NCBI GenBank assembly: GCA_020341775.1
Contig: CP070835.1
Location: forward strand, 1,100,657-1,133,719
Length of the DNA: 33,063 bases
Reading direction: 5' to 3'
Source of the DNA: Candidatus Bathyarchaeota archaeon
GTDB lineage: Archaea > Thermoproteota > Bathyarchaeia > Bathyarchaeales > SOJC01
A program made the translations under genes and the position numbers. Positions 4,390 to 32,921 of the stretch are shown piece by piece. The notes beneath the pieces were generated by a model. It searched no databases and had not been told where the DNA came from. It saw only the letters and a program-made list of their open reading frames with translations. Positions within the stretch are counted from its first letter, which is position 1. Every line of letters starts with the position of its first letter.

Positions 4390-4410
4390 TTGGGGCGGGT
4401 GTAACGGTTG

Positions 4411-5643
4411 GTGCGACTTGAAGGCTTCAGAGAACTGAAGCCACTCGACGAAGCTTTAGATAGATTCTTTAAAAGGCTTCAGCCAAAAAGACTAGGAACT
4501 CTTTTTGTCCGTGTTGACGAAGCCTTGGGAAGAGTCACTGCTAGAAATATCATTGCAGAGAGGTCTTTGCCCTCTTTTGACCGGTCTGCAGTAGATGGGT
4601 ATGCACTGAGAGCGAGAACCGGGGCCACAGCTTCACAATTTCAGCCGAAAACTTTCCTTCTTGTTGAGAAAGAAATCTTAGAAGAAGGAGAAACAAAGGA
4701 AGTTTGGACAGGTAATGCGCTTCCAAAAGGAGCAGACGCAGTTGTAATGTTGGAGCATACAAAGAGAATTCATGATCGAATTGAAGTTTCCACTCCTTTG
4801 ACGCCCAACATGAATGTTTCGAGGAGAGGTGAAGATGTGATGAGAGGCGAGATTGCAGTGAGTGCTAAAACTCGACTAAAACCACAACATTTAGGTCTAT
4901 TAGCTGCGATTGGGAAAACAGAAGTTGAAGTTGTCCAAATTCCTAAAGCGGCCATCATAGCAACAGGCACCGAACTCATTAAGCTGGGTGAGAAGCAACG
5001 TCCACATCAGATTGTTGAAGTTAACAGTATAATACTGTCCGGGATGTGTTCAGAACTCGGAGTTAAAGCGTTTAGACTAGGTATAGTAGGAGACGACGAA
5101 AAAGAGATTGCAGAGAAAATCCGTCAAGGTTTGGCAGCTGCAGATGCAGTGATCACAACTGGTGGCACAAGCGTTGGTCTCCACGATTTAGTGCCAGCAG
5201 CAATCAAACAGATAGATTCGAAAGCTATTGTGGTTCACGGTGTTGCTATTCGTCCGGGCATGCCGACTGCCCTTGCGGTCGTGAAGAATAAACCTGTGCT
5301 GATTCTTTCCGGAAATCCCATAGCTGCAGCTGTAGGGTTTGAGGTTTTTGGTCGCCCTCTTTTTAAGGAATTATTGGGATTGAATGAAATAGAGAGAATC
5401 AGAGTGAAGGCCAAGATGACACGGAGAGTTGCAGGAGTTTTAGGGCGACGTGTCTTCTTAAGGGTGAGAGTTATAGAAAAGGATGATCAATTTTTCGCTC
5501 AGCCTATTCGCATAAAGGGATCTGGCATCATCACTACAATGACGTCCGCCAACGGCTATGTCATCATTCCTGAAGATAGGGAAGGTTTGAAAGAAAATGA
5601 GCAAGTCACCGTTCATCTTTTTGATGTTTTATTGAGTGAATAG
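4411..5643 (+). CDS. moeA: Molybdopterin molybdenumtransferase MoeA (first paralogue)
   Basis: MoeA inserts molybdenum or tungsten into (adenylylated) molybdopterin to make the cofactor. The product is about 410 residues, the family length. It shows the MoeA N-terminal domain with SFDRSAVDGYAL, the GNALPKGADAVVMLEHT segment, the MoCF-binding domain with ATGTELI and TTGGTSVGLHD, then LSGNPIAAAVGFEVF and a C-terminal beta domain. A TTG at 4408 directly precedes the GTG at 4411 in the same frame, and either could be the start. A purine-rich GGGGCGGGTG lies just upstream. It is followed three bases after its stop by a second moeA, an arrangement seen in many archaea and thought to reflect molybdenum versus tungsten or different enzyme clients. 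Confidence 0.92.
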   Translation: MRLEGFRELKPLDEALDRFFKRLQPKRLGTLFVRVDEALGRVTARNIIAERSLPSFDRSAVDGYALRARTGATASQFQPKTFLLVEKEILEEGETKEVWTGNALPKGADAVVMLEHTKRIHDRIEVSTPLTPNMNVSRRGEDVMRGEIAVSAKTRLKPQHLGLLAAIGKTEVEVVQIPKAAIIATGTELIKLGEKQRPHQIVEVNSIILSGMCSELGVKAFRLGIVGDDEKEIAEKIRQGLAAADAVITTGGTSVGLHDLVPAAIKQIDSKAIVVHGVAIRPGMPTALAVVKNKPVLILSGNPIAAAVGFEVFGRPLFKELLGLNEIERIRVKAKMTRRVAGVLGRRVFLRVRVIEKDDQFFAQPIRIKGSGIITTMTSANGYVIIPEDREGLKENEQVTVHLFDVLLSE

Positions 5644-5646
5644 AAG

Positions 5647-6894
5647 ATGTTTAGGAAACTCATTAGTTTAGATGAAGCGAAAGAGAAAATCGCAGGTGCG
5701 GTCTCCACCAAACCAATTGGCATCGAAAAGATTTCATCGTCAAAGGCTGTTGGACGCGTGTTGGCTGAGGATATTGTTTCACCCATGCCAGTTCCACCAT
5801 TTCATCGTTCAACGGTCGATGGATACGCTGTTATATCAAAAGACACCGTCGGTGCTGAGGAAGACAATCCAACTTTGTTGAAGCTAATAGGTCGTGTTGA
5901 TGTGGGGGAAATATCGCCGCTAACAATTGAAAATGGCAATGCTGCTGAAATTGTGACTGGCGCACCTTTGCCTGCTTGCGCCGACGCAGTAGTCATGCTT
6001 GAACACACAACAACCGAGGAGAAGGGGAAGTTACTTATCTATAGATCGGTGGCACAGAACGAAAACGTAATGATGAGGGGCTCCGACATTCGAAAAAATG
6101 AAACTGTTTTGAAAAGCGGTACTGCACTATCATCTAGGGAACTAGGTGTATTGGCGGCGTTAGGATTCACACAAGTAAAAGTTCTCAAGCAGCCCAAGGT
6201 TGCAGTAATCTCCACTGGAGCAGAAATTGTGGAACCTGGAAAGCCTTTGCCACCAGGAAAAATCTATGATATAAACACTGCTACATTGACTGCAGCAGTA
6301 CTTGAATGTAGTGGAGAGCCTATTAATTTTGGAATTGTTGAGGGCGACGATGCTGAATCGCTGAGAAAAACAGTTAAGATGGCGATAGATGCTGCTGATA
6401 TTGTCATAACCTCGGGTGGGGTTTCTGTTGGAACAAAAGACTTGATTCCTGAGATTGTCTCTGAACTTGCAAAAACGGGTTTAGTAGTTCACGGAGTGGC
6501 TGTGAAGCCAGGAAAACCTGTTGCAGTTGGAATTGTCAAGAAAAAGCCGGTCTTTTCACTTCCGGGACATCCAACTTCATCACTTTTGATGTTTCATCTG
6601 CTTGTCCGCCCAATCCTCCTAAAAATTGCGGGAAAACAAGAAGAGCCCCCCAATATCGTAAAGGCGATCAACGCAGTTAGGCTGTTTTCAGCGGTAGGGC
6701 GACGCACTTTCATAGCTGTCACCTTATCCCGCGACCATAAAGATCGATGGTTGACTTTTCCAGTGGCTACAGGTCAATCAGGTGCAATAACCACGCTTGC
6801 GAAAGCAGATGGCTACGTGGAATTGAGAGAGACTCAGCAATTCATAGAGGCGGGAGGAGAGGTCACAGTTTTTCTGTTCAATCCTATAGAATAA
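5647..6894 (+). CDS. moeA: Molybdopterin molybdenumtransferase MoeA (second paralogue)
   Basis: This 415-residue protein is a second complete MoeA. It has FHRSTVDGYAV, TGAPLPACADAVVMLEHT, the MoCF domain motifs STGAEIVEPG and SGGVSVGTKD, then LPGHPTSSLLMF and the C-terminal domain. It differs from its neighbour at the substrate loop, with LPGHP here and LSGNP there. The two are therefore diverged paralogues rather than a recent duplication. The ATG at 5647 sits just after the upstream stop, so the pair is translationally coupled. No moaABCE or mobA gene lies in the window. Confidence 0.92.
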   Translation: MFRKLISLDEAKEKIAGAVSTKPIGIEKISSSKAVGRVLAEDIVSPMPVPPFHRSTVDGYAVISKDTVGAEEDNPTLLKLIGRVDVGEISPLTIENGNAAEIVTGAPLPACADAVVMLEHTTTEEKGKLLIYRSVAQNENVMMRGSDIRKNETVLKSGTALSSRELGVLAALGFTQVKVLKQPKVAVISTGAEIVEPGKPLPPGKIYDINTATLTAAVLECSGEPINFGIVEGDDAESLRKTVKMAIDAADIVITSGGVSVGTKDLIPEIVSELAKTGLVVHGVAVKPGKPVAVGIVKKKPVFSLPGHPTSSLLMFHLLVRPILLKIAGKQEEPPNIVKAINAVRLFSAVGRRTFIAVTLSRDHKDRWLTFPVATGQSGAITTLAKADGYVELRETQQFIEAGGEVTVFLFNPIE

Positions 6895-7917: not shown

Positions 7918-8367
7918 GTGGCGAAGGTTACATCTCCTGTAGTTTATATTGATGTGCGCTTCTCAGCTCACGCCACCGAAAATCTAGAAAAGACAAAGAA
8001 GGCAGTGTACAACTTGTTTCCTCCAGATCGGAAAGATAAGATGAAGTTTACAAAGGAAACCATTAAAGGGCACCATGGTAACCTGATAACCCTTTTTCAA
8101 GCAAGAATCAAAGACAAAGAAGTGCTGCAAGCCTTTGTTGAAAAGCTCTCTACAGGTCTTTCAGAGCTAGATAAAGAGACAATGTCTCGAGAGGCAAAAT
8201 TGCTCGTTGAGAGGAGTAACTTATACCTTCGTCTTGACAAGCAAGCAGCAGTTGAAAATCAAATGAGGCTCTATAGAGCCGATCCAATTCACATACGCAT
8301 TCATTTCAAGCGGAAAGATAATCGAAGCATCATTGAACTCTGCAGGGAACTTGGGTTAATGTCATGA
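7918..8367 (+). CDS. RNA-binding protein of COG1325 (predicted exosome-associated)
   Basis: This 149-residue protein resembles the archaeal COG1325/DUF54 family, long known as a predicted exosome-linked RNA-binding protein because it is encoded beside RNase P and exosome genes. Visible features are a beta strand with VYIDVRFSAHAT, a central KGHHGNLITLFQARIKD strand pair, SNLYLRLDKQAA, and a C-terminal IHIRIHFKRK strand. The start is GTG at 7918. The stop overlaps the next gene in an ATGA junction (8364-8367), so translation is coupled to Rpp30. Its biochemical role is not established; the name rests on family and context. Confidence 0.8.
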   Translation: MAKVTSPVVYIDVRFSAHATENLEKTKKAVYNLFPPDRKDKMKFTKETIKGHHGNLITLFQARIKDKEVLQAFVEKLSTGLSELDKETMSREAKLLVERSNLYLRLDKQAAVENQMRLYRADPIHIRIHFKRKDNRSIIELCRELGLMS

Positions 8368-9101
8368 AGCAGTTTGCTGATCTTCACGTATGTCCAAACC
8401 TGGATGACAAGGAGGAGTTAGAGAGAATTATTCGCAAAGCGTCAAGCTTGGGCTGTAATTTGATCGGAGTTTCATTGCCTTTCAGACCTAGGCACAAAAC
8501 AATTAACTTCTTGCATAGACTTTGTAGAGACAGCTGCATTGACTTGGCTACTAGAATAGATCTGGCGCCAAAGTCGTCAAAAGATCTGTTGGAAAGCTTG
8601 AGGTTATTTCGACGAAGGTTTGACTTAGTGGCGGTGAACTGCTCTTCAAAATCAATTGCCCGACAAGCTGCTAAGGATCATCGCGTTGATTTGCTTGTCT
8701 TTTCCTCACGTAATTCTCACAGGCGGTTTTTTGATTTGGCTGAAGCAACATTAGCTTCACAGAGCGTTGCTGCGCTGGAGGTTAATATGGCTTTGCTTTT
8801 AGGCTGTAGGGGTTTTTCTCGAGCACGTTTGCTATCTTGTTTGTGGAGGGAAGCAGAGATTGCACGAAGGGTCGGCGTCTCCATTGTGATTTGCAGTGGA
8901 GCTATTGACGAGTTTGGACTTCGTAGTCGACACGACTTTGTGAGCCTTGCTGCTCTATTTGGGATGAACGATGCGACCGCTTTGAATGCGATTTCCGTTG
9001 CGCCCCAAGCTATCGTAACGCGAAATCGAGGGAAACTTGGGTCTGACTATGTGTCAAGAGGCGTACGTGTGGTGAGGAAGGGGAGGAATTGCGGCGACTG
9101 A
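8364..9101 (+). CDS. rnp3: Ribonuclease P protein component 3 (Rpp30/Rnp3)
   Basis: Rpp30 is a TIM-barrel-like protein subunit of archaeal RNase P. With Pop5 it activates the catalytic domain of the RNase P RNA that matures tRNA 5' ends. The 245-residue product has family features: the N-terminal FADLHVCPN segment, LGCNLIGVSLPF, a VDLLVFSSRN strand, ALEVNMALLLG, and the C-terminal VVICSGAIDEFGLRSRHDFVSLAALFGM region. It overlaps the upstream stop by ATGA. Its last 13 bases overlap the start of the Pop5 gene at 9089, which fits coupled 1:1 synthesis of the Rpp30-Pop5 pair. Confidence 0.9.
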   Translation: MKQFADLHVCPNLDDKEELERIIRKASSLGCNLIGVSLPFRPRHKTINFLHRLCRDSCIDLATRIDLAPKSSKDLLESLRLFRRRFDLVAVNCSSKSIARQAAKDHRVDLLVFSSRNSHRRFFDLAEATLASQSVAALEVNMALLLGCRGFSRARLLSCLWREAEIARRVGVSIVICSGAIDEFGLRSRHDFVSLAALFGMNDATALNAISVAPQAIVTRNRGKLGSDYVSRGVRVVRKGRNCGD

Positions 9102-9928
9102 GAAGGCGTTACTTAGCTTTGAAGGCTGAGGGCCGACGATTTCTTGATCCCGACGATCTTATGCATACCGTTTGGAGTGCCGTGTATCAGCTTTTTGGGG
9201 AGCATGGGGCAAGTCAAACTGGTTTGGTTCTGGTGGATTCGGATGGAAAAAGTGGGATATTCATAATTCGATGCTCTCATAAGGCTTTGAGCTTGGTTTG
9301 GGCCGCTGTCGCCTCTATTACGGAGATTAATGGAAAGCGCATTGCTGTTCGAGTGGTGGGAGTGTCAGGGACACTAAAGGGACTCAGAAGAAAATTGCTT
9401 AGACAGGAGGTTAATGGAGGTATGAGCAAAAAAAGAGATACCATTGAGTCCATGTTGCGGAAGTGGTTGAGAAATGCAAGAAAACTGGTAGTAGTTGGGA
9501 TCGGCAATGAACTTCGCAGAGACGATTTTGTCGGTGTCAAAATTGTTAGAAACGTAAGGGAAAACACCTCTGATCGGGTCATGTTGATTGAGAGCGAAAC
9601 TGTTCCAGAAAGCTTCATTGACACCATCACCAAGTTTCGTCCAACGCACATTCTAATTATCGATGCGGGATTGCTTGGCTTGGCACCAGCCAGTGTTAAG
9701 TTTTTAGAGTCAAGTGAAGCTTTAGGTCCAATCACTACCACAATTTCAACCCATGCTCTTCCTCTAAGGCTTTTTTGCGAATATCTGCAGAGGGCAATCG
9801 ATACAAAAATTGCCTTGATAATTGTGCAACCGAGAAGAACCGATTTTGGCGAAGGTCTAAGTAGAGAAGTTAGGGAAGTCAGCGATACAGTTGAAAAGAC
9901 GCTGCAAAAAATCTTGTCTGCCTTTTAG
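9089..9928 (+). CDS. rnp2: Fused ORF: RNase P component 2 (Pop5/Rnp2) + HycI-type hydrogenase maturation protease
   Basis: One open frame of 279 codons carries two unrelated proteins. Residues 1 to about 108 are Pop5, a ferredoxin-fold RNase P subunit, with RRRYLALKAEG, DLMHTVWSAVYQLFGE and VRVVGVSGTLKGLRRKL. From about 131 on it is an M52-type protease that trims the hydrogenase large-subunit C-terminus after nickel insertion: GIGNELRRDDFVGV with D145/D146, IIDAGLLGL with D192, and STHALPL with H222, the expected metal ligands. There is almost no linker. Met112 (9422) is preceded by two GGAGGT sequences, so the protease may be made separately from an internal start as a 168-residue protein, close to normal HycI size. 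The upstream TTG start follows a strong GGGAGG. Confidence 0.88.
   Translation: MRRLRRRYLALKAEGRRFLDPDDLMHTVWSAVYQLFGEHGASQTGLVLVDSDGKSGIFIIRCSHKALSLVWAAVASITEINGKRIAVRVVGVSGTLKGLRRKLLRQEVNGGMSKKRDTIESMLRKWLRNARKLVVVGIGNELRRDDFVGVKIVRNVRENTSDRVMLIESETVPESFIDTITKFRPTHILIIDAGLLGLAPASVKFLESSEALGPITTTISTHALPLRLFCEYLQRAIDTKIALIIVQPRRTDFGEGLSREVREVSDTVEKTLQKILSAF
9406..9424 (+). promoter_or_regulatory. Internal ribosome binding site and start for the HycI part
   Basis: Two GGAGGT copies at 9406-9411 and 9416-9421 precede the in-frame ATG at 9422, with spacings of 10 and 0 bases. The first is a near-perfect Shine-Dalgarno sequence at usable distance. It lies inside the fused frame, exactly at the boundary between the Pop5 and HycI domains. 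Confidence 0.6.
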
Positions 9929-10490: not shown

Positions 10491-10527
10491 CAAGAAGATC
10501 CAACCAAATAGATATTGGTGAATCTTG

Positions 10528-11598
10528 GTGAATGCACAATTCCCTATAACAATAACACCAAAATATAATTTTCCACTCCCTCCAGAAAATTTGTTGCTCC
10601 CCCAGCAGCTAATAGAATTGAGCATGCGTTCTCTGAAACAGCTAGAAAAATTTCATCCACCCCTTGGAAAGGGGCCACCTTACCAATCTACATTGCCGAG
10701 AGGTGATAGACAATTCCGCACAGCAAACCTCGTGAAGCTGAAGCCAAATGCCTTGCAGACGCGCATAGTGGCAATTGATGCTTCAAGTATAAGAATTGGC
10801 GAAACTGAAAGAGGAACACTGCTTGCTATACGAGGTGCTATTGTATGGAGACAAGCGAAACGCTATCGTTATCTGCGTTTAGGTCCATTTCCTTTTCACA
10901 TCACTGAGAGGAACAAGAATGAGATTTGCAGTTTTCTCCACAGCGGCAATAGAGCCGCAGTCGTGCATGAAGACTTTATGCCGAGCTTCATTCACCTTCA
11001 GACCAAACTGACAACTCTGCTTGAGCGCTGGATACAAGCATTTGTGATTCAAACAACACATGACAGCTTGATTCTTTGGGATGGAAGCCTAGTGGTCGGC
11101 CCTTTCGATGTACCGAAGCATTCTGTAGAAGAATTACTGAAAGAAGCTCGAAGTCGCAAGAATACTATCTTAGCTTTTTCAAAGATGACAAGGTTGCTTC
11201 TTCATGGTCGTAGAATCACAGATTTTATATGGAGACAGCCCCCTCCATGCCTGCTCAAAATAAGAAACCATTCCATGATGGCTGGTTCAATGAGTCTGTT
11301 GGGCAGTGTGTATGTCACAAAATTGAGTGCTGGAAGTTGCGCTTTCCGCTTAGATGTAGATAAAGAGCTATCTCATAAAAGAGCGGTTGAGGCAGTTCAG
11401 AATCTGCTTGGAGATGATTTGATCCGCCAAAGCTATCCAGAAACTCTTCGATTGGCTCACATATTTTCCACATTTACTGCAAACGAAGTTATAGGGATAC
11501 AAAGGTGCTTTGCTCTGGAAAGCAACATGAAAATCGTCACTCGGCCAAACATTCGTCGACTACTCTTTGGTCGGTTTGGAAAAGGCGCAGAGGGCTAA
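10528..11598 (+). CDS. nurA: NurA nuclease
   Basis: NurA is a toroidal 5'-3' exo/endonuclease that works with the HerA translocase in archaeal DNA end resection. The product is about 356 residues. It shows the NurA core: IVAIDASSIRIGE with Asp near residue 85, LILWDGSL with Asp near 186, and the C-terminal block with Tyr near 304 and His near 312 (YPETLRLAHIFSTFTANEV). The Tyr-His spacing of eight matches characterised NurA active sites. TTG at 10525 and GTG at 10528 are both possible starts; a 9-bp direct repeat TTGGTGAAT covers them. herA follows after five bases. mre11 and rad50, usual companions, are absent here. Confidence 0.88.
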   Translation: MNAQFPITITPKYNFPLPPENLLLPQQLIELSMRSLKQLEKFHPPLGKGPPYQSTLPRGDRQFRTANLVKLKPNALQTRIVAIDASSIRIGETERGTLLAIRGAIVWRQAKRYRYLRLGPFPFHITERNKNEICSFLHSGNRAAVVHEDFMPSFIHLQTKLTTLLERWIQAFVIQTTHDSLILWDGSLVVGPFDVPKHSVEELLKEARSRKNTILAFSKMTRLLLHGRRITDFIWRQPPPCLLKIRNHSMMAGSMSLLGSVYVTKLSAGSCAFRLDVDKELSHKRAVEAVQNLLGDDLIRQSYPETLRLAHIFSTFTANEVIGIQRCFALESNMKIVTRPNIRRLLFGRFGKGAEG

Positions 11599-11603
11599 GT
11601 GTC

Positions 11604-13058
11604 TTGCGTCTCTATCGAAAAGAAGGCTCGACCATACAAATTGTATGCTTTCCCAACGAAAGAGTTGAGAAAGGCGACTATCTGACCATCGGAGATTCTC
11701 AAATTGGGAAAAGCCTAATCGTCCAAGTCATAGATATCCAATATGCCAACGTTCCAGGCATCTTGGAAGAGCTTCTTCGACACTACGACGGTGACTCATA
11801 CATACAGGGTGAAGACGTGGATCCATTTGAAGTGGCAACACACATTGCCTACATCCAAGATGCGCGGCTGCTGATCTGCAAAATCAGAGCCACAGAAAAC
11901 GGTGGCGACCTAGTTTTTGCCAGTTCATGGCTTCCACATCGTTCTCGCGCTAAAGTCCAGAAACTTTCCATTGAAAGATTGCTGACCAAGGCTGGAACTA
12001 ACAATGGATATTCAATTCATCTGGGAGAAACAGCGGAGAAAAAGCAACTCAACGTGGATGTGCGGGCTTTAGATGGTAGCCTTAATATCATCACAGGAAA
12101 GAAGGGAACTGGCAAATCCCACATATCCAAACTTCTGACGCTCAGTTTGGCGAGCCACGGGGCGCCTGTTGTGATTCTCGATCTTAATGGAGAGTATACT
12201 AGACTTAGTCACAACAATGATGGAAAACCAAACGAATTTCTAGAGAAGATCCACGTTCTAAATCCTAGGCAAAATCTTAAAATTACTCTAGGGCAGATGG
12301 AGCTTCGAGTGATGCTCAGCATTCTCATTAATGCGCTCCACTTACCCGGGACATCTGCCAGAGAATTTAGGCGCATATGGCATTACCTTTTACAGCAAAA
12401 TGCTTTATCAATGCATGAGTTAGGTGAAGCAATAAGAAATTGGAAATGTAATCAGCATATTCGAGACGCACTGTACTCCAGATACCATACATTATTGAAT
12501 TCAGGCCTGTTTACCGACAATTCAACACAGATAACCTCGTTAGGAGAGGCGCTAGACCTGGCTCGTGTAGGTGGTGTGGTAGTAATCAACCTCCGTGATA
12601 CTTCAAACATTGACAGGCTTATTGTAGTGGAATTCTTACTTGGAAAGCTTTTAGAATTATTATCAAATTGGAAGTTGCGGGCTGTCTTTCTGTTCGCCGA
12701 GGAGGCTCATCTCTACTTGAAAGAGACCTATTGGGACGACATTGTAACCAGGATGCGGCATTTTGGAGTATTCACAACTTTCATCACAAACCAACCTGAC
12801 ACTATTCGAGAGAACATATACCGTCAGGCTGACAACCTGTTCCTTTTTAACTTTACAAATGAGCATGACTTGGAAACCGTGTCTAAAGCATCAAGAGTAG
12901 ACTCTGAAACCATCAAATCCGTAGCCCGAGATCTCCCCCCTTATAATTGTCTCGTTTCAGGAAGGATCGTAAATGACTTTCCAATCGTTGCCAAGATTAG
13001 AAGGTTGGATGTACATGCGATGGGGCAGACACGGCTATTTTTCTCTGATGAAAACTGA
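11604..13058 (+). CDS. herA: HerA-like DNA translocase (FtsK-HerA ATPase)
   Basis: HerA is a hexameric bipolar DNA translocase that feeds ends to NurA. From the TTG at 11604 the protein has 484 residues. An N-terminal barrel-like domain is followed by Walker A GKKGTGKSH (about 165-173), VVILDLNGEYTRL, and a Walker B-like VFLFAEEAHLYL ending in the HerA-typical EEAH. Near the C-terminus come GVFTTFITNQPDTI and an arginine-containing segment. The frame is open further upstream into nurA (to 11505), but that part is only a shadow of nurA. TTG 11604 is the first start after the nurA stop. At under 500 residues it is a little shorter than many HerA proteins. Confidence 0.85.
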   Translation: MRLYRKEGSTIQIVCFPNERVEKGDYLTIGDSQIGKSLIVQVIDIQYANVPGILEELLRHYDGDSYIQGEDVDPFEVATHIAYIQDARLLICKIRATENGGDLVFASSWLPHRSRAKVQKLSIERLLTKAGTNNGYSIHLGETAEKKQLNVDVRALDGSLNIITGKKGTGKSHISKLLTLSLASHGAPVVILDLNGEYTRLSHNNDGKPNEFLEKIHVLNPRQNLKITLGQMELRVMLSILINALHLPGTSAREFRRIWHYLLQQNALSMHELGEAIRNWKCNQHIRDALYSRYHTLLNSGLFTDNSTQITSLGEALDLARVGGVVVINLRDTSNIDRLIVVEFLLGKLLELLSNWKLRAVFLFAEEAHLYLKETYWDDIVTRMRHFGVFTTFITNQPDTIRENIYRQADNLFLFNFTNEHDLETVSKASRVDSETIKSVARDLPPYNCLVSGRIVNDFPIVAKIRRLDVHAMGQTRLFFSDEN

Positions 13059-29426: not shown

Positions 29427-30680
29427 GTGAGCTCGGACGAGTGTTGTGGCATGAGCGAAGTGGGCATTGTCGGAATCAACTTGGATGATAATTATTGTGG
29501 TCGGTGCTCAATATGCTCCTCTATTTGTCCTTATGATGCTATTGGTGTTGACGCTGAAACAGGTGAAGTTCGAATAGACATAGAAAAATGTCAATTTTGC
29601 GGAATTTGCTATAGCGCTTGCCCAGTCAATGCAATCGACATAGTCTATTACGATAGTGACACACTTCTGAAAAAACTGGAAAAAGCAGCAGCTAAGAAAG
29701 GGGCAGACACTTTGGTTCTGATGTGTAGAGGCAATAGTCCTTCAACATGTCAAATAGATGAAATTCTCGAAGGTGTATGTTGCAAGAGCTATGTACCTTT
29801 GCGAGTTCCATGCGTAGGTCGTGTTCCCCCAGAATTTATCTTTAAAACGCTAACTTTGGGGATCAATAACATTATCGCTATACGGTGCGAAGAAGAATTT
29901 TGCCGGTTTAAAGATGGCAGTAGAATCAACAATCAACGATTATCGATAGCAAAACGCGTTCTAGAGGAGTTGGGCTATGATGATGTGCTAAGAGTAAACA
30001 CGTATGCTAGGAAGGCTGTCTATGACACCGACAAATGCGTAGGGTGCGATAAGTGTGTTTTCATATGCCCCTACGAAGCTATTGATGTGCAATCATTGGC
30101 AACTCCAGTCATCAATGCTGACAAATGTGTAGGATGTGGTGCATGTGCTCTCGTCTGCCCTCACTTGGCCATTCAGCTTGAAGGCTTCGAATATGAAGCT
30201 GTGGCGCGCCGTATTCAACGCTATGGAGCAGCTGCAAGAGAGCTGAAAGCCAAAGGCGTCTCGCCCTTAATCCTAGCATTTTGCTGTCAATGGTCCGAAT
30301 TTTCAGCTTTGGATCAACCTAAAACCCGTTTATTTGACAACAAAGTCGTCTTAATGGAAATTCCATGCTTCAAGGGATTAGACCCTTACCATGTCATTGA
30401 AGCTTTACATTATGGTTTTGATGGTGTTCTGGCAGTTGTCTGTTCTGACGAAGATTGTAAACTTGAAAAAGGCTACGATGTAGCTCAGCGAAACACTGCT
30501 GTACTACGTCGTGTGCTGAAAAATCTAAACCTGCAGGACAGATTTGAGCTTTACACAGCGTCGCCGAGAAATGTTGGCGACTTCACTAGGCAGCTCAGGT
30601 CCTTCATTGAGAGGATTGGCTCTCTTTCTCCTCTCTCCTTGTCTGCGCGACCAATAACAGTGGATGCGGATGATGTTTGA
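29427..30680 (+). CDS. Duplicated ferredoxin-MvhD iron-sulfur protein
   Basis: The 417-residue protein has the order Fd-MvhD-Fd-MvhD. The first ferredoxin part has two 4Fe-4S motifs (Cys24, 27, 30, 34 and Cys55, 58, 61, 65). MvhD-like domain 1 (about 93-190) has Cys100, 129, 154 and 159. The second ferredoxin part has two more 4Fe-4S motifs (Cys204, 207, 210, 214 and Cys234, 237, 240, 244). MvhD-like domain 2 (about 279-395) has Cys286/287, 314, 339 and 344. MvhD carries a [2Fe-2S] cluster that links F420-non-reducing hydrogenase or formate dehydrogenase to heterodisulfide reductase. The GTG at 29427 starts it, and the stop overlaps the next gene as TGATG. The internal repeat suggests an old tandem duplication. 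Confidence 0.85.
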   Translation: MSSDECCGMSEVGIVGINLDDNYCGRCSICSSICPYDAIGVDAETGEVRIDIEKCQFCGICYSACPVNAIDIVYYDSDTLLKKLEKAAAKKGADTLVLMCRGNSPSTCQIDEILEGVCCKSYVPLRVPCVGRVPPEFIFKTLTLGINNIIAIRCEEEFCRFKDGSRINNQRLSIAKRVLEELGYDDVLRVNTYARKAVYDTDKCVGCDKCVFICPYEAIDVQSLATPVINADKCVGCGACALVCPHLAIQLEGFEYEAVARRIQRYGAAARELKAKGVSPLILAFCCQWSEFSALDQPKTRLFDNKVVLMEIPCFKGLDPYHVIEALHYGFDGVLAVVCSDEDCKLEKGYDVAQRNTAVLRRVLKNLNLQDRFELYTASPRNVGDFTRQLRSFIERIGSLSPLSLSARPITVDADDV

Positions 30681-31519
30681 TGTATAAGATAATTACCAAG
30701 CAAGAATTAGCTGCTAAAATCAAATTGCTTGAAGTTAATGCGCCGGACATAGCTGCAAAAGCGAAACCGGGACAGTTTATAATCTTGGTTGTCGATGAAA
30801 CGGGTGAAAGGATCCCACTCACCATAGCTGACTACAATATTGTCAAGGGAACCGTAACGTTCATTTTCAACGAAGTGGGCAAGACGACAAAGCAGTTAGG
30901 ATCTCTAAACGAAGGTGATAGTATTGTGAACATCGCTGGTCCTTTAGGAGTCCCTTCTGAGATCAAGAAGTTTGGACGCGTCCTATGTGTCGGCGGTGGC
31001 GTAATGATCGCACCTTTGCATCTTCAAGTCAAAGCTTTGCGGGAGGCTGGAAACGACGTAACGACGGTGATTGGAGCCAGAGGAGAGGATTTGCTCATTT
31101 TTGAGCAAAAGATGAAAAAAGTCAGCAACAAGGTATACATCGTCACTGATGATGGGTCACGAGGATTCAAAGGTTTTGATTTCCTCAAAGAACTATTGAA
31201 AGCTGAAAGCTTCCAACGTGCCATAGTTATGGGTCCAGTTATCATGATGGAAACCGTGTCAGAAATTAGTAAATCTTTCAATATTCCCACGATGGTGACG
31301 GTTACACCCATAATGGTGGATGGCATGGGAATGTGTGGCGTTTGCCGAGTAACTGTAGGTGGTGAAACGAAATTTGCATGCATCGATGGCCCCGAATTTG
31401 ATGGTCATCAAGTTGATTTCGAAGAGCTCGTCAAACGACAACGCCTGTTTCTGCCGGAGGAAAGGCTTTCATCAATGTTTTGGGAAAAGCTGGGAGGGGG
31501 CTGCCATCGCGAAAGATAA
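30680..31519 (+). CDS. nfnA: NfnA-like FAD/[2Fe-2S] subunit (ferredoxin-NAD(P)+ oxidoreductase / sulfide dehydrogenase beta)
   Basis: The 279-residue flavoprotein has a FAD-binding barrel with AAKAKPGQFIILVVDETGERIPLTIAD, an NAD-binding domain with CVGGGVMIAPLH, VIGARGEDLL and AIVMGPVIMM, and a C-terminal cysteine group GMCGVCRVTVGGETKFACIDGPEFDGH that binds [2Fe-2S]. This is the small subunit of NfnAB-type transhydrogenases, also called sulfide dehydrogenase. ATG 30680 overlaps the upstream stop by one base. The paired large-subunit gene follows directly. In Nfn, this subunit carries the FAD that takes electrons from or to NAD(H). Confidence 0.9.
   Translation: MYKIITKQELAAKIKLLEVNAPDIAAKAKPGQFIILVVDETGERIPLTIADYNIVKGTVTFIFNEVGKTTKQLGSLNEGDSIVNIAGPLGVPSEIKKFGRVLCVGGGVMIAPLHLQVKALREAGNDVTTVIGARGEDLLIFEQKMKKVSNKVYIVTDDGSRGFKGFDFLKELLKAESFQRAIVMGPVIMMETVSEISKSFNIPTMVTVTPIMVDGMGMCGVCRVTVGGETKFACIDGPEFDGHQVDFEELVKRQRLFLPEERLSSMFWEKLGGGCHRER
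31493..31508 (+). promoter_or_regulatory. Strong ribosome binding site before an ATC codon (candidate nfnB start)
   Basis: GGAGGGGG (31493-31500) lies five bases before ATC at 31506. That ATC is in frame with nfnB and is followed by GCG AAA GAT AAG. The annotated ATG at 31557 has no comparable site upstream. Confidence 0.4.
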
Positions 31520-31556
31520 GCCTTCGCCCAAGCCTGTAATCAAGAAAAGCGTTTCC

Positions 31557-32921
31557 ATGCCCAAACAGAAACCTGAAATAAGAAAACACAATTTTAACGA
31601 AGTTGCTTTAGGCTACACCGCGGATCAAGCGGTTGCTGAAGCAGAGAGATGTTTGCAGTGTCCAAAACCGCAGTGCGTAAGTGGGTGCCCTGTTGAAATC
31701 GAAATCCCCGATTTCATTAGACTCATAAAAGAACGTCAATTTGATGAAGCAGTTAAGGAAGTGAAAAGAAGGAACAGTCTTCCGGCAATCTGCGGTCGGG
31801 TCTGTCCACAAGAAGAACAATGTCAGCAACAATGTGTAATGGGAAAAGCGGGCGAACCAATCAACATAGGAAGGCTGGAAAGGTTTGTTGCTGATTACGA
31901 AATGAATAGAGGTACAAGTACAATTTCGAAACAGGAGCCCACGGGAAAAAAGGTGGCAGTCGTCGGGGCTGGTCCTGCAGGTCTCACCGCTGCTGCCGAG
32001 CTCGTTAAGCTTGGACACGAGGTCGTAATTTTTGAAGCCCTTCACAAACCAGGCGGCGTGCTTATCTATGGCATACCGGAGTTTCGGTTACCTAAGAGAA
32101 TCGTTGCTGCCGAGGCAGATTACGTCAAGAGGCTTGGAGCGTCGATTGAAACTAATGCTCTTATCGGTAGGCTATTCACTATTCCAGAGCTTCTCGTAAA
32201 CAGGTTTGACGCGGTTTTTGTTGGAACCGGGGCAGGACTACCACAATTTCTGAAACTACCCGGTGAAAATCTGGGCGGCATATATTCAGCAAACGAGTTT
32301 TTGATTCGTGTGAATCTGATGAAATCCTATGCTTTTCCAGAATATGATACGCCTATCAGAATTGGTAAAAAAGTAGCTGTTATAGGAGCTGGCAACGTGG
32401 CAATGGACTCTGCTCGCTCCGCCTTGAGACTTGGAGCCGACACCGTTTACATCGTATATCGAAGGTCAAAGGCGGAAATGCCTGCTCGAGCAGAAGAAGT
32501 AGAGAACGCTGAGGAAGAAGGCATAATCTTCAAACTTCTCACAAACCCAACCAAATTTTTCGGTGATGAGAAAGGATGGGTAAAACACATGGAGTGCATT
32601 GAGATGCAGCTGGGAGAAACCGACGAATCGGGACGAAGACGCCCCAGTCCAGTTGAAGGATCAGAATTCCTAATGGACGTGGATACCGTAATCATTGCAG
32701 TAGGAAGAACGCCAAATCCCATCATTCAGCGAACCACAAAGGGATTGGAAACCACCAAATGGGGCACCATCAAAGCAGAAGAGGAGACTGGAAAAACCAG
32801 TTTGCCAGGAGTCTATGCTGGAGGCGACATTGTAACGGGAGAAGCCACTGTAATTAAGGCCATGGGAGCTGGAAAAAAAGCTGCGCGCGCAATACATCAA
32901 TATCTAGCTAGCCAAAAGTGA
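31557..32921 (+). CDS. nfnB: NfnB-like large subunit (GltD-type FAD/4Fe-4S oxidoreductase)
   Basis: The protein is the bifurcating large subunit of Nfn/sulfide dehydrogenase, related to the glutamate synthase small subunit. From the ATG it has 454 residues. The N-terminal cluster domain has CLQCPKPQCVSGCP and CGRVCPQEEQCQQQC. FAD-binding GAGPAGLTAAAELV and NADPH-binding GAGNVAMDSARSAL with YRRSKAEMP follow, then GVYAGGDIVTG. No alternative ATG, GTG or TTG lies in frame between the nfnA stop and 31557. The homology and a strong GGGAGGGGG ribosome binding site instead point to an ATC at 31506, encoding MAKDKPSP at its start. No glutamate synthase large subunit is nearby, so Nfn-type function is favoured. 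Confidence 0.88.
   Translation: MPKQKPEIRKHNFNEVALGYTADQAVAEAERCLQCPKPQCVSGCPVEIEIPDFIRLIKERQFDEAVKEVKRRNSLPAICGRVCPQEEQCQQQCVMGKAGEPINIGRLERFVADYEMNRGTSTISKQEPTGKKVAVVGAGPAGLTAAAELVKLGHEVVIFEALHKPGGVLIYGIPEFRLPKRIVAAEADYVKRLGASIETNALIGRLFTIPELLVNRFDAVFVGTGAGLPQFLKLPGENLGGIYSANEFLIRVNLMKSYAFPEYDTPIRIGKKVAVIGAGNVAMDSARSALRLGADTVYIVYRRSKAEMPARAEEVENAEEEGIIFKLLTNPTKFFGDEKGWVKHMECIEMQLGETDESGRRRPSPVEGSEFLMDVDTVIIAVGRTPNPIIQRTTKGLETTKWGTIKAEEETGKTSLPGVYAGGDIVTGEATVIKAMGAGKKAARAIHQYLASQK

Follow-up and report, generated by a model that had tools for sequence, protein, structure and literature searches.

The genes for the RNase P protein Pop5 and the hydrogenase protease HycI are joined in one reading frame in a genome of Candidatus Bathyarchaeota, and the same in-frame fusion occurs in another genus of the same family. 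The fusion is probably genuine, rare and lineage-specific, formed from two translationally linked neighbours, with both activities predicted to be retained. The window, that is, the whole stretch of DNA that was analysed, comprises 33,063 nucleotides (contig CP070835.1 of assembly GCA_020341775.1). The features at the fused locus are collected in Table 1.

Table 1. Features at the pop5-hycI locus (positions are those of the window).
Feature	Position	Strand	Remarks
Rpp30 (RNase P p30), upstream neighbour	8364..9101	+	PF01876, E 3.2e-23; end overlaps the Pop5 start by 13 bases
Pop5-HycI fused frame	9089..9928	+	279 aa, ~31 kDa, TTG start; both Pfam domains; same fusion in G009
Pop5 domain	9107..9397	+	residues 7-103; PF01900 (RNase_P_Rpp14), E 1.5e-19, profile 1-103/104
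Linker	9404..9442	+	about residues 106-118; low model confidence at 111-113
Shine-Dalgarno AGGAGGT for the internal ATG	9405..9411	+	-11.2 kcal/mol with the anti-Shine-Dalgarno
HycI part	9422..9928	+	ATG 9422, probable internal start giving a 168-aa free protease; basis: sequence and Shine-Dalgarno score
HycI protease domain	9485..9919	+	residues 133-277; TIGR00142, E 1.1e-32; PF01750, E 1.4e-14
First nickel-ligand position, D145/D146	9521..9526	+	invariant in 28 HycI-type sequences
Second nickel-ligand position, D192	9662..9664	+	invariant in 28 HycI-type sequences
Third nickel-ligand position, H222	9752..9754	+	invariant in 28 HycI-type sequences

Domains and structure of the fused frame

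The ORF reading of the window gave a single open frame of 279 codons (without stop) on the plus strand. A complete Pop5 domain was found above the Pfam cut-off (PF01900, 70.4 bits; cut-off 23). The HycI profile PF01750 was matched by residues 151-272 over profile positions 2-127 of 130 (54.5 bits; cut-off 23). These near-full profiles in one open frame confirm the sequence-only reading that no stop lies between a complete Pop5 and a complete protease. The NCBIfam model TIGR00072 was also passed (91.1 bits; cut-off 47.45), and the hycI equivalog cut-off of TIGR00142 was narrowly missed (112.8 versus 119.1 bits). Membership of the fused frame in the HycI superfamily is clear from these scores, despite the strict equivalog cut-off.

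Alignment of 13 Pop5 proteins showed that R7, Y8, R61, S93, G94 and T95 are invariant; these are the near-universal Pop5 residues described as R17, Y18, R71, S103, G104 and T105 (PMC4919917, in its numbering), all of which are present in the fused frame, key RNA contacts among them. The three ligand positions that had been pointed out in the protease were likewise borne out by the comparison of HycI-type proteins (Table 1). Neither domain looks decayed, since the key positions are conserved in both carriers of the fusion.

The solved structures matched by sequence were 5zby for HycI, and 3wz0, 2av5, 2czv and 6k0a for Pop5. The AlphaFold2 model consists of two separate folds with a disordered linker between them. 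In the structure search, the HycI part of the model matched 5zby (TM 0.90 over the target), and the Pop5 part matched the folds of 3wz0, 2czv and 2av5. The pLDDT is below 50 at residues 111-113, with helices at residues 96-109 and 119-126 on either side; the join falls after the C-terminal helix of Pop5 and before the first helix of HycI. The fusion may be tolerated because a flexible linker can connect the end of Pop5 with the start of HycI.

The N-terminal part thus resembles archaeal Pop5 (RNase P component 2; Pyrococcus horikoshii 2CZV, M. jannaschii 6K0A) in its full domain, its model fold, the RY, R and SGT residues (PMC4919917) and its operon neighbour Rpp30; unlike these proteins, it runs without a stop into a second enzyme. 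The C-terminal part resembles HycI (PF01750, TIGR00142; T. kodakarensis 5ZBY) in its fold, in the three metal-ligand positions and in the presence of a tailed large subunit in the genome; it differs in carrying Pop5 at the N-terminal end. The literature search yielded no report of an RNase P subunit joined to a metabolic maturation protease, and RNase P goes unmentioned in the main text of a survey on fusions in archaea.

Gene order in the family and origin of the fusion

The order Rpp30-Pop5-HycI is conserved in the bathyarchaeial family to which the window genome (G000) belongs. In the window, a gene for an RNA-binding protein also lies upstream of the fusion, together with that of Rpp30; the Rpp30-Pop5 pairing is the ordinary archaeal arrangement (PMC4919917). 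Two other gene groups of the window were recorded: tandem moeA-like genes at 4408-6894 (411 and 415 aa, three bases apart; the second was matched against Pfam), and, at 10525-13058, a 357-aa frame without a Pfam match that overlaps the start of a HerA-type helicase gene and may be NurA by its position.

Pop5 and HycI are adjacent yet separate in seven relatives (G001, G002, G003, G006, G008, G011 and G012), with HycI always in the -1 frame. Depending on the start chosen, 5-17 bases lie between the two genes or the genes share a few bases, and HycI begins near the position equivalent to ATG 9422 of the window. For two of these genomes, G002 and G011, a GTGA overlap of stop and start is a possible reading; overlaps of this type are typical of translationally coupled pairs (PMC10666635). 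These two genomes resemble the overlapping archaeal pairs of the ATGA/GTGA type; the window genome differs from such pairs in having lost the stop, so that one frame continues into the other. Seven of the nine genomes with an adjacent pop5-hycI pair (including both carriers) are thus unfused, and the fusion is the minority state. The separate -1 frames of these seven relatives are likely the ancestral state.

The second carrier, G009, has the same in-frame fusion at 53% identity, with both Pfam domains present. Its recurrence in another genus discounts a chance open frame at 9089-9928. Separate ORFs in every related genome would have spoken against the fusion according to the sequence-only reading; the join in G009, where the linker offers HycI neither an ATG nor a GTG start and the sequence is free of gaps over at least 9.9 kb, instead supports a bifunctional fusion.

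Both-domain matches were confined to the window genome and G009 when the fused protein was searched against 257 Bathyarchaeia genomes with a strict E-value; the scores obtained for each part on its own suggest that fusions elsewhere in the order would have passed this limit. The other HycI proteins found in Bathyarchaeia are stand-alone. When the Pop5 profile was run against 398 genomes of the phylum, no other Pop5 frame among the matches listed exceeded 225 aa, and a scan of viral contigs gave no match. Two candidates were rejected. A match in G112 (L032) aligned from query residue 93, and its upstream part is the end of an apparent GltA-like oxidoreductase, not Pop5; a 456-aa Pop5 frame in G003 is an artefact of translation through a 100-N gap. 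G003 also has a second, truncated Pop5 (L058, 2064-2412) beside a 100-N gap, which is perhaps from another organism in the bin.

Phylogenetic trees were reconstructed for the two carriers and their relatives. The tree of ABCE1 and RpoB grouped the window genome with G009 (support 76), and so did a four-marker tree of ABCE1, RpoB, Rpp30 and Pop5, from which HycI was excluded (support 68). The tree of the RNase P proteins alone instead paired G009 with G002 (support 61); these proteins alone give trees too weak to decide between one and two origins. A single origin of the fusion in the two carriers is favoured, with weak support.

The junction and its alternative explanations

ATG 9422 is in the same frame as Pop5, and AGGAGGT lies ten bases upstream of it. 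The 22 bases before this ATG gave -11.2 kcal/mol against the anti-Shine-Dalgarno, which is among the best 1.4% of the 575 plus-strand ATGs of the window. An internal start at 9422, as proposed in the sequence-only reading, is therefore well supported in the window genome only, and free HycI is probably also made from it. With such a strong Shine-Dalgarno, a 31 kDa fusion plus an 18 kDa free HycI would be expected in this organism. No in-frame ATG or GTG was found in the linker of G009 (LTHTTEKSNPGQPRNLEK); a TTG is the sole near-start, and the Shine-Dalgarno before it is poor (-3.7 kcal/mol). If unfused, HycI of G009 would be left with no good start, which makes the fusion the simplest reading for this genome. 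The fusion is probably the sole route to the HycI encoded at this locus, and mainly the fusion would be expected as the product.

The internal start also allows an explanation in which HycI of the window genome comes mainly from ATG 9422, while the protease part attached to Pop5 is neutral and unneeded. The Shine-Dalgarno score and the similar HycI start of the unfused relatives agree with this. However, ribosomes that finish Pop5 meet no stop, so that every completed Pop5 chain is a fusion; no second copy of Pop5 was found in the 86% complete window genome, and a comparable HycI start is absent from G009. We consider this explanation unlikely; an internal start is in itself compatible with the fusion.

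A one-base assembly or sequencing indel, joining frames that are truly separate in the window genome, appears somewhat less likely still. The sequence-only reading held that an indel near 9411 would restore a TAA stop. An extra base does create this TAA, but the resulting frame relation of HycI matches no relative. One base fewer in GGTTAATGG, near 9411, would instead create a TGA overlapping ATG 9422, together with the -1 relation of all seven unfused relatives. Against either change, there is no long homopolymer at this spot, and frameshift-like breaks are rare (1 per 85 kb of aligned DNA in the window genome and 1 per 58 kb in G009). An indel hardly explains the fusion in G009, since a separate HycI would not have a proper start there. 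If only the window genome were affected, the error would have to have arisen at the very pair that is truly fused in a related genus, which makes it unlikely. It was rejected as the main explanation on account of the G009 fusion and the low frameshift rate.

The assembly itself was considered in the same context. The Bathyarchaeia MAG that contains the window has a length of 1.92 Mb and is 86% complete, and its single record is a pseudo-chromosome in which 100-N gaps link the contigs (63 such runs in 401 kb of sampled sequence); none of them lies in the window. The idea that the one-contig genomes are indel-rich long-read assemblies was dropped, since their contigs are joined by such gaps; this joining would suggest short reads, in which such indels are rare. 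A split RpoB of the window genome (748-aa frame) was rejected as a frameshift, as it lies at a 100-N gap.

A further explanation is that the fusion was selected for a functional coupling of hydrogenase maturation with RNase P, for instance because each RNase P dimer would then carry two proteases, or because the amounts of the two proteins would be linked. It agrees with the presence of the fusion in two genera, with the retention of the key residues of both domains and with the conserved neighbour order in the family; moreover, short overlaps tend to link genes for subunits of the same complex (PMC10666635). On the other side, there is no known tie between tRNA 5' processing and hydrogenase maturation, the seven relatives with the adjacent pair stay unfused, and no paper on such a coupling was found in the literature searched. 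This explanation seems highly improbable. Hardly more probable is a selected fusion that makes the hydrogenase protease a permanent passenger of RNase P, with the amount or place of one protein setting both maturations; the fusion itself is all that points to a regulatory link of this kind.

RNase P, hydrogenase and the predicted role of the fusion

The archaeal RNase P RNA (RF00373) was not found in the window genome, which is incomplete and gap-joined, and was probably lost in a gap; it was found in 9 of the 13 genomes of the family, including G009 (partial). The absence of a gene from such a pseudo-chromosome means little. The one [NiFe] large subunit recovered from the window genome ends with DPCFACATH and 25 further residues. 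A cleavable tail of this kind requires a protease, and no HycI besides the fused one was found in this genome, which is 86% complete, so another could be missing. The fused domain or the internal-start product is therefore the likely working protease, as judged from sequence. Hydrogenase fragments of G009 have the same kind of tail (a DPCxxCxxH motif and 25-26 residues). Two additional HycI copies in G009 lie on fragments of about 1.0-1.4 kb, which may have been binned wrongly.

GltA-like genes occur at two places in these data. The window has a cluster at 29427-32921 for an MvhD/FlpD-ferredoxin protein, a DHODB-type iron-sulfur protein and a GltA-like oxidoreductase; in G112 (L032), HycI lies directly behind the apparent end of a GltA-like gene. 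The hycI gene may have moved from a GltA-like neighbourhood to pop5 in the family of the window genome.

We favour a genuine fusion for the following course of events. The hycI gene lies directly behind pop5 in the RNase P operon of the family, and two genera have lost the intervening stop, which makes the frames continuous; this loss may go back to a small indel in a common ancestor. The N-terminal Pop5 domain of the 31 kDa product would join Rpp30 and the RNase P RNA, and the C-terminal HycI, on its flexible linker, would cleave the tail of the [NiFe] large subunit once nickel has been inserted. In the window genome, the internal ribosome site at 9405-9422 would probably add free HycI, and the cell would then hold both forms. 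In G009, essentially only the fusion would be made from the pop5-hycI locus. An RNase P dimer could then bear two HycI domains.

The two activities need not be functionally linked, and the fusion is probably a structural by-product of operon packing. It cautions against taking every fusion as a functional link. Moreover, the tolerance of RNase P towards a large C-terminal extension of Pop5 can be tested with it. Within one family, the pair is found unfused, near-touching and fused, which represents a natural series of packed operon neighbours becoming one protein.
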